Of a stretch of 64,000 nucleotides of DNA, positions 11,733 through 13,930 are shown piece by piece (within the stretch, counting starts at the first letter, position 1; every line of letters starts with the position of its first letter). Location of the stretch: assembly GCA_000153385.1 (NCBI GenBank), contig CH672374.1, positions 1,676,544 through 1,740,543 of the forward strand, written 5' to 3'. Source of the DNA: Flavobacteria bacterium BBFL7 (GTDB lineage Bacteria > Bacteroidota > Bacteroidia > Flavobacteriales > Flavobacteriaceae). The notes beneath the pieces were generated by a model, which saw nothing but the letters and a program-made list of their open reading frames with translations, was not told the origin of the DNA and searched no databases. Made by a program: the position numbers and the translations under genes.

Positions 11733-12023
11733 ATGACTAAAGCAGATATCGTATCTAAAATTTCAGATAAGTTGGGAATGGAAAAGACTGATGTACAGGC
11801 AGCTGTAGAATCTTTCATGAATGAAGTAAAAGGTTCCTTAGAATCTGGAGAGAATGTATATCTACGTGGTTTCGGAAGCTTTATCGTTAAGACAAGAGCT
11901 GAGAAAACTGGACGTAATATTTCCAAGAACACAACAATTAAAATACCAGCTCACAATATACCAGCATTTAAACCTGCTAAAGTATTTGTAGAAGGTGTGA
12001 AAACAAGAGTAAAAGTTAAGTAA
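11733..12023 (+). CDS. HU family nucleoid DNA-binding protein
   Basis: A 96-residue protein with the full HU/IHF fold: N-terminal helices (MTKADIVSKISDKLGMEKTD), the signature FGSFIVKTRAEKTGRNI and the beta-arm with the IPAF motif. It ends in a Lys/Arg-rich tail after VFVEGVK. Dimers bend and compact DNA. It has its own promoter and is followed after 13 bp by a 30-residue basic peptide gene sharing the same terminator, so both are probably on one transcript. HU versus IHF subunit cannot be settled from the sequence. Confidence 0.95.
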   Translation: MTKADIVSKISDKLGMEKTDVQAAVESFMNEVKGSLESGENVYLRGFGSFIVKTRAEKTGRNISKNTTIKIPAHNIPAFKPAKVFVEGVKTRVKVK

Positions 12024-12036
12024 AAATATAAGAGAT

Positions 12037-12129
12037 ATGCCAAGCGGTAAAAAAAGAAAGAGACATAAGGTAGCAACCCACAAACGTAAAAAGCGTCGTC
12101 GCGCTAACCGTCACAAGAAGAAAAAGTAG
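12037..12129 (+). CDS. 30-residue highly basic peptide, bS22/mS38-like
   Basis: A small gene encoding MPSGKKRKRHKVATHKRKKR plus ten more residues (RRANRHKKKK), two-thirds Lys/Arg/His. The core KVATHKRKKRRRANR fits the pattern K[MV]xxHKxKKRRxxxR of the AURKAIP1/COX24 (mS38/bS22) ribosomal peptide family. That match is by eye only. The gene sits 13 bp after HU and its last codons form one arm of the transcription terminator. I recall such peptides at this place, before RNase G, in other Flavobacteria. It is too small for most gene finders. A ribosomal role is an inference. Confidence 0.75.
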   Translation: MPSGKKRKRHKVATHKRKKRRRANRHKKKK

Positions 12130-12150
12130 TATTTCACTACTTTTTCTTTT
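12121..12150 (+). terminator. Terminator of the HU/basic peptide transcript
   Basis: AAAAAGTAG (12121-12129) pairs with CTACTTTTT (12137-12145), followed by CTTTTT. The upstream arm is the last codons plus the stop codon of the 30-residue gene. Confidence 0.8.
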
Positions 12151-12281
12151 TATATCAATTTTGGGTATGGTCGTCACCTTTTAAATTGCGCGCTTTTAAG
12201 AAAAGACGTGTTGGTACCTCGTATCATATAAGGAGCGAATTTACCTTTTGATATAATCACAATCTTAGTTCATTGACATAG

Positions 12282-12328: not shown

Positions 12329-12391
12329 ACTATTTAAAGTATAACTGTTTCTATTAATCAGTTAATGATTATAGAACTAACAATTGGAATC

Positions 12392-13930
12392 ATGGATAAA
12401 GAAATTATTATCCGTTCCGGTTCTACTAAGGTTGACTATGCACTTACTAAAAATGGTAGGTTAGTCGAGCTACACCAAGATGAAGATGAAAATAAATTTG
12501 CGGTAAGCGATATATTTATTGCAAAATCTCGCAAGGTCTTATCTGGTCTTAATGCCTCATTTGTAAATGTAGGTTATGAAAAAGATGGGTTTTTACACTA
12601 TCATGATCTAGGACCACAATACCTTACCCAATTTAAATTCACGAAGCAAATTCTGAGCGGTAGACGCAAGAATTATGCGTTAAAAGATATTAAACTAGAA
12701 AAGGAATTAGAAAAATCCGGTAGCATTACAGATGTAGTTGCTCCTAACCAACCTATTCTAGTACAAGTAGTTAAAGAACCTATCTCCACAAAAGGACCTA
12801 GATTAAGCGCAGAGCTTTCTATACCAGGTAGATACGTGGTTCTCGTTCCTTTCTCAGATCGTATTTCTATTTCTCAAAAAATAGAAGATCGTGAAGAAAA
12901 GAGCCGACTTAAAAGACTTGTTAAAAGTATTAAGCCTGCAGGCTTCGGCGTTATTGTACGTACCGTCGCAAAAGGCAAACTAGTAGCAGAACTGGATCAG
13001 GACTTACAGAACCTTATCACAAAATGGGAAAATATGTGCGCAAAGTTGCACAAAGCAAATTTTCCTTCTAAAGTAATGACTGAAGTCAGTCGTACTAATT
13101 CAATCATGAGAGATGTTTTTAATGACACCTATACGTCTATAGTCGTAGACGATGAAGAAGTATGCTCTGAAATCAAAGATTACCTTAAAACTATTGCTCC
13201 TCACAAGGAGTCCATTGTAAAATATCATAATCCTCGTACGCCTGTATTTGAAAAATACGGAATCGAGAGACAAATTAAAACGTCATTTGGCCGTACGGTT
13301 TCAATGAGTAAAGGTGCTTACCTTATCATTGAACATACTGAGGCAATGCACGTTATTGATGTTAACTCTGGAAATCGATCTAACAAAGCAAATAGTCAAG
13401 AAGACACCGCGCTAGAAACTAATCTTATCGCCGCTAGTGAAATAGCACGACAATTAAGATTAAGAGACATGGGTGGTATTATAGTTGTTGACTTTATAGA
13501 CATGCGCCAGGCAGAAAATAGAAAAAAACTCTATGAACACATGCGAGATGAAATGTCTGAAGATCGTGCTAAACACAAAATACTTCCTCCTAGTAAATTT
13601 GGATTAATTCAAATTACGAGACAACGTGTAAGGCAAGAAATGAATATCAAGACTCGTGAAGAGAATCCTGATGGAAATGGAAATGAAATTCAAGCTCCTA
13701 TTCTTGTTATCTATAAGATAAAAGAGGAGTTAGAAAAACATTTAAAAAATGGACACAAAAAAATAACGCTTAATGCGCATCCTTTTGTGGCTGCATTTAT
13801 AACTAAAGGCTATCCTTCCATACGTTCTAAGTGGTTTATGAATCACAAGAAATGGATTAAAGTATCGCCTAGAGATGCTTACACTTATCTAGAATATAAT
13901 TTCACAGATAAAGACGGTAAAGTACTCTAA
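12392..13930 (+). CDS. rng: Ribonuclease E/G family protein (RNase G)
   Basis: A 512-residue endoribonuclease that trims rRNA precursors and initiates mRNA decay; cytosolic. The N-terminus holds an S1-like RNA-binding domain (LNASFVNVGYEKDGFLHYHD), followed by the RNase H-like and DNase-like region. The catalytic Asp residues lie in HVIDVNSGN and GGIIVVDFIDM, the Mg-binding DV-NSG and VDFIDM motifs. The start at MDKEIIIRSGS is chosen because it matches homologues; an in-frame ATG 27 bp upstream (12365) is possible. A strong terminator follows. Confidence 0.94.
   Translation: MDKEIIIRSGSTKVDYALTKNGRLVELHQDEDENKFAVSDIFIAKSRKVLSGLNASFVNVGYEKDGFLHYHDLGPQYLTQFKFTKQILSGRRKNYALKDIKLEKELEKSGSITDVVAPNQPILVQVVKEPISTKGPRLSAELSIPGRYVVLVPFSDRISISQKIEDREEKSRLKRLVKSIKPAGFGVIVRTVAKGKLVAELDQDLQNLITKWENMCAKLHKANFPSKVMTEVSRTNSIMRDVFNDTYTSIVVDDEEVCSEIKDYLKTIAPHKESIVKYHNPRTPVFEKYGIERQIKTSFGRTVSMSKGAYLIIEHTEAMHVIDVNSGNRSNKANSQEDTALETNLIAASEIARQLRLRDMGGIIVVDFIDMRQAENRKKLYEHMRDEMSEDRAKHKILPPSKFGLIQITRQRVRQEMNIKTREENPDGNGNEIQAPILVIYKIKEELEKHLKNGHKKITLNAHPFVAAFITKGYPSIRSKWFMNHKKWIKVSPRDAYTYLEYNFTDKDGKVL

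Follow-up and report, generated by a model that had tools for sequence, protein, structure and literature searches.

A 30-codon gene between HU and rng in Flavobacteria bacterium BBFL7 very probably encodes ribosomal protein bS22

A reading frame of 30 codons that follows a gene for a DNA-binding protein raises the question whether it is a gene at all and, if so, where its strongly basic product acts. The frame lies in a stretch of 64,000 nucleotides from Flavobacteria bacterium BBFL7 (hereafter the window) at positions 12037..12129 of the forward strand. It starts with ATG, ends with TAG (included in the coordinates) and specifies the peptide MPSGKKRKRHKVATHKRKKRRRANRHKKKK. Coordinates, frame and length (30 aa) given in the first-pass annotation of this DNA were all exact on checking, and the core motif that it had read by eye, K-V-x-x-H-K-x-K-K-R-R-x-x-x-R, runs as described from K11 through H15 to R25. 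We show here that the peptide is almost certainly ribosomal protein bS22 of this Bacteroidota genome, as judged by sequence comparison, and that its gene is an ordinary ribosomal protein gene of a kind already described.

Compared with the chain sequences in the PDB, the window peptide finds three distinct chains, whose names are all ribosomal or AURKAIP1/COX24. The closest is chain 5 of 7JIL, the bS22 of Flavobacterium johnsoniae, which has the same length and is identical over the full length in 29 of 30 residues (E 2.8e-11), the only difference being an A in place of R21. Chain 10 of 9I5V, an AURKAIP1/COX24 domain-containing protein (E 1.9e-8), and chain V of 8FMW, the bS22 of Borrelia burgdorferi (28 residues aligned, E 2.4e-6), follow. 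A profile built from 21 Bacteroidota members recovers the same chains at E 5.2e-15, 7.8e-14 and 3e-11, respectively, and nothing besides them at E<=10. Four more entries (9OZ9, 9OZN, 9OZZ and 9P0E) share the sequence of 7JIL chain 5. Jha et al. 2021 is reportedly the primary paper on bS22 in the F. johnsoniae ribosome; the presence of bS22 in the 70S particle of this species is described in excerpts of PMC10618245 and PMC10085706. The exact F. johnsoniae-type peptide is encoded at loci L045-L057, between an upstream HU and a downstream rng gene, and the loci of one genus of the window's own family (g18) carry precisely the 7JIL peptide. The window locus likewise has the place of a Bacteroidota-type bS22 gene, with HU upstream on the same strand. 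The first-pass annotation had proposed a bS22-like ribosomal protein, and the identity to 7JIL chain 5 bears this out. Its suggestion of an unlisted ribosomal protein does not hold, since structures of Bacteroidota ribosomes and of a spirochete ribosome already include a model of the protein.

The 30-residue sequence of 7JIL chain 5 carries two molecule names in the PDB, 'S22' and 'L38' ('50S ribosomal protein L38'). Because bL38 of F. johnsoniae is a separate 50S protein (excerpts of PMC10618245), the second name is probably a labelling slip.

Several lines of evidence speak for a real gene. The peptide is matched in 38 of 39 related genomes, the sole miss being a genome of 78% completeness, and a composition-matched scramble finds no match in the same 39. 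Across the phylum, bS22 is matched in 290 of 296 Bacteroidota genomes, which by our tally represent 145 of 146 genera. No other ORF of the window combines a length of at least 20 aa with at least 50% K+R, and none arose when the window was base-shuffled 50 times. In a codon comparison of 24 loci (the window's included; most, not all, from the same genus) 115 differences are synonymous and four are not; in three of these an earlier stop removes the last lysine, and the fourth is R21S. The base changes fall on the three codon positions as 13, 0 and 118, leaving none of 131 on a second position. This pattern indicates a protein-coding gene whose product is strongly constrained by selection. The frame is short, A-rich and placed at the end of a transcript, as would suit a chance ORF in A-rich DNA ahead of a terminator. 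Conservation of the protein with synonymous change, the matches in 290/296 genomes, the solved homologues and the shuffles refute such an origin, and we consider its probability practically nil.

The peptide itself is hit by no Pfam family and by no NCBIfam model at E<=10. bS22 can escape gene callers, and the Pfam and NCBIfam profiles searched do not catch it; the present analysis confirms that the genome of the window carries this ribosomal protein.

How far the kinship of bS22 extends is a separate matter. The Borrelia protein comes from another phylum and has a GUG start, and it is nearer to the F. johnsoniae than to the mycobacterial bS22 in both structure and sequence, as described in excerpts of PMC10618245. 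In that study, whose mass spectrometry relied on trypsin, bS22 was the ribosomal protein that escaped identification. Trypsin would break the window peptide into small fragments. Actinobacterial bS22 (Mycobacterium, Cutibacterium; 33 aa) resembles the window peptide in size, in charge and, following excerpts of PMC10618245 and PMC10085706, in the pocket that it fills; an identity of 37% between the Cutibacterium acnes and F. johnsoniae proteins is given in excerpts of PMC10085706. In our PDB search, actinobacterial chains were matched neither by the window peptide nor by the family profile at E<=10. A profile-profile comparison of Bacteroidota with actinobacterial bS22 gave 5.9% probability over nine columns, a weak test given only three near-identical rows on the actinobacterial side, and sequence thus does not show homology between the two types here.

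The mitochondrial protein mS38/AURKAIP1/COX24 (PF08213) and eL41 are placed in the same pocket as bS22 in excerpts of PMC10618245, PMC10085706 and PMC6582356. Chains of mS38 reach up to 200 aa against the 30 aa of the window peptide, and none was matched by this peptide or by the 21-member profile in the PDB at E<=10; with actinobacterial bS22 as query, mS38 is reached only at E 0.11 and above. The first-pass annotation had proposed an AURKAIP1/COX24 HMM search as a check, and this came back negative: PF08213 (COX24_C) matches nothing in the window's own genome and passes its cut-off in 0 of 20 related genomes. Two sub-threshold matches occur in one related genome, neither of them at the bS22 gene, and among control genomes the family is matched in 3 of 14 and over the cut-off in 1 of 14. 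The AURKAIP1/COX24 name on 9I5V thus stems from no profile match that we could reproduce. Of the resemblance to bS22/mS38 first suggested for the peptide, the bS22 part stands and the mS38/AURKAIP1 part found no sequence or profile match. Homology of Bacteroidota bS22 to the mitochondrial members receives no sequence support from our PDB searches or from PF08213, and a kinship of bS22, mS38 and eL41 would have to be argued from the shared pocket told in the papers rather than from a sequence match of the kind sought here.

What bS22 would do on the ribosome can be read from the published structures. It would form a bent helix in a small-subunit pocket made of the 16S helices h2, h27, h44 and h45, touch 23S helix H67/H68 upon subunit joining, and thereby brace the base of h44 and add a subunit bridge. 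The pocket in which Borrelia bS22 sits is also filled in mycobacterial and Bacteroidetes ribosomes (excerpts of PMC10618245). Proteins like bS22 adjoin the mRNA path in groups that often do without Shine-Dalgarno sequences, namely Bacteroidota, mycobacteria and mitochondria. Such mRNAs are often found in Bacteroidia (excerpts of PMC9976891), and a link of a bS22-like protein to Shine-Dalgarno-poor mRNAs has been raised for mycobacteria and mitochondria (PMC6582356).

A ribosomal protein of this kind might also have a second job outside the ribosome, for example as a membrane-active or antimicrobial peptide, which we regard as very unlikely. Basic helices are often membrane-active or antimicrobial. 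C. acnes bS22 inhibits the growth of E. coli and staphylococci as well as cell-free translation (excerpts of PMC10085706). The C. acnes protein, however, is a distant member of the group and was supplied as a free peptide, and the 30-aa sequence of the window, with a basic helix from the first residues, suggests no exported or processed form.

The genes around bS22 are well defined. Upstream lies the gene of an HU-family DNA-binding protein (11733..12023, forward strand, 96 aa; PF00216, E 3e-28), preceded on the opposite strand by what we take to be a mutY-like gene. Downstream follows the ribonuclease E/G gene rng (12365..13930, forward strand), which scores 403 bits with TIGR00757 (cut-off 325.95) and E 6.5e-101 with PF10150 and has a later in-frame ATG at 12392 as an alternative possible start. 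Since HU ends on the same strand 13 nt before the ATG of bS22, co-transcription of both genes is plausible. We parsed 85 loci, 57 from the closest relatives and 28 from farther ones, so that counts over all of them are weighted to close relatives; two more loci (L072 and L087) have a bS22 match that the motif scripts did not parse and are excluded from these counts. A same-strand HU gene precedes bS22 in 75 of the 85 (the window and 74 of 84 others), and rng follows it in 62. The closest 57 loci contribute 56 and 57 to these totals and the farther 28 contribute 19 and 5, distant homologues possibly being missed in the short stretches searched, and the link to HU hence reaches farther than that to rng. 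A partnership this close, 13 nt in the window and adjacent in 75/85 loci, could point to a basic nucleic-acid-binding peptide that is HU's partner in the nucleoid instead of a ribosome component. Against this speaks that the peptide is kept in 10 of 85 loci in which no HU was found beside it (the searched stretches being short) and, above all, that near-identical peptides are modelled in 70S ribosomes; the solved chains refute a nucleoid role in the main, and we hold it to be extremely improbable.

The end of the bS22 gene overlaps a hairpin of 16 bp (12115..12151, forward strand), with a 5' arm at 12115-12130, a loop at 12131-12135 and a T-rich 3' arm at 12136-12151. RNA folding places the last codons and the stop codon (12127-12129) within the 5' arm; the first-pass annotation had claimed a stop codon in the hairpin. 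The predicted energy is -16.6 kcal/mol, a value that none of 200 shuffles reached (z -4.1). The hairpin is probably an intrinsic terminator. A simple terminator scan reported no site here, probably because its rule needs a T run after the stem, and in this case the T run falls mostly within the 3' arm. When the other loci were folded as single sequences, over a span beginning 15 nt ahead of the stop and reaching 50 nt past its first base, 50 of 85 had the whole stop inside a 5' arm, a count over related and not independent loci in which some folds are weak (L061, -4.5 kcal/mol). At L037, L039, L041 and L043 the arm does not enclose the entire stop and the core of the hairpin comes later; the overlap is therefore common in the window's family and not general. 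The HU-bS22 transcript would end at this hairpin. A ribosome that finishes bS22 might cover the 5' arm and let RNA polymerase run on into rng, which we consider quite improbable. Its basis would be the stop overlap at 50 of 85 loci and a boxA-like element (described below) that in the window's family comes after the hairpin and ahead of rng. If true, translation of bS22 would tie ribosome supply to RNase E/G, an rRNA-processing enzyme.

bS22 seems dispensable in places, because six of the 296 phylum genomes have no match. Genera g114 and g94 account for three each, and none of the six gives a credible match at E<=10 or with the profile. Genus g94 belongs to the Balneolaceae, and three other genomes of the same genus keep the gene. 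In one g94 genome (G117) the order is HU, bS22 and a convergent gene for 216 aa. In three others (G262, G309 and G318; loci L100, L098 and L099) HU and the 216-aa gene are separated by about 96 to 172 nt, and a bS22 frame is missing. At a locus of Fodinibius halophilus (L101) a protein is 100% identical to the 216-aa protein of G309, and the stretch examined likewise holds no bS22. Of 16 named loci, the remaining 15 have the gene; they come from Aliifodinibius, Rhodohalobacter, other Balneolaceae and one 'Bacteroidetes bacterium'. It appears that bS22 was lost within one Balneolaceae genus, if it has not instead relocated and diverged past recognition. The three Balneolaceae genomes that lack bS22 between HU and the 216-aa gene amount to natural knock-outs for a ribosomal protein and as such bear on the Shine-Dalgarno idea. 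The three g114 genomes (G183, G230 and G234) are near-complete, GC-rich in the stretch seen and without recognisable bS22. A match at E 0.08 in G234 (L091) was rejected as chance, as it falls in a GC-rich stretch and has an internal stop.

Between the bS22 hairpin and rng, and not part of bS22, lies a further element, GTTCATTGACATA (12268..12280, forward strand). Together with the absence of bS22 from the three Balneolaceae genomes, this element in the rng leader is perhaps worth more than the identity of the peptide. The pattern GTTC[AT]TTGA[ACG]A follows bS22 at no more than 300 nt in 44 of 85 loci, all 44 of them from the window's family and hence related, against 0.05 expected by base shuffling. 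The rRNA leader of the window's genome carries GTTCATTGAGAT about 150 nt before 16S. We presume that elements of the GTTCATTGACATA/GTTCATTGAGAT type are boxA, and a boxA-type antitermination site may be common to rRNA and the RNase E/G gene. A limited literature search returned no report of such a site at a Bacteroidetes rng, and neither the window nor three loci scanned had a match in Rfam.

The sole 16S rRNA match listed for the window's own genome is a fragment (G000:C2:1304529-1305024) that covers positions 9-546 of the 1533 in the model; the assembly may therefore have a broken, masked or collapsed rRNA operon. The same genome has two further exact matches to the boxA-like pattern (L094 and L095); neither has an Rfam match, and in the 801 bases inspected around each, both look like coding DNA.
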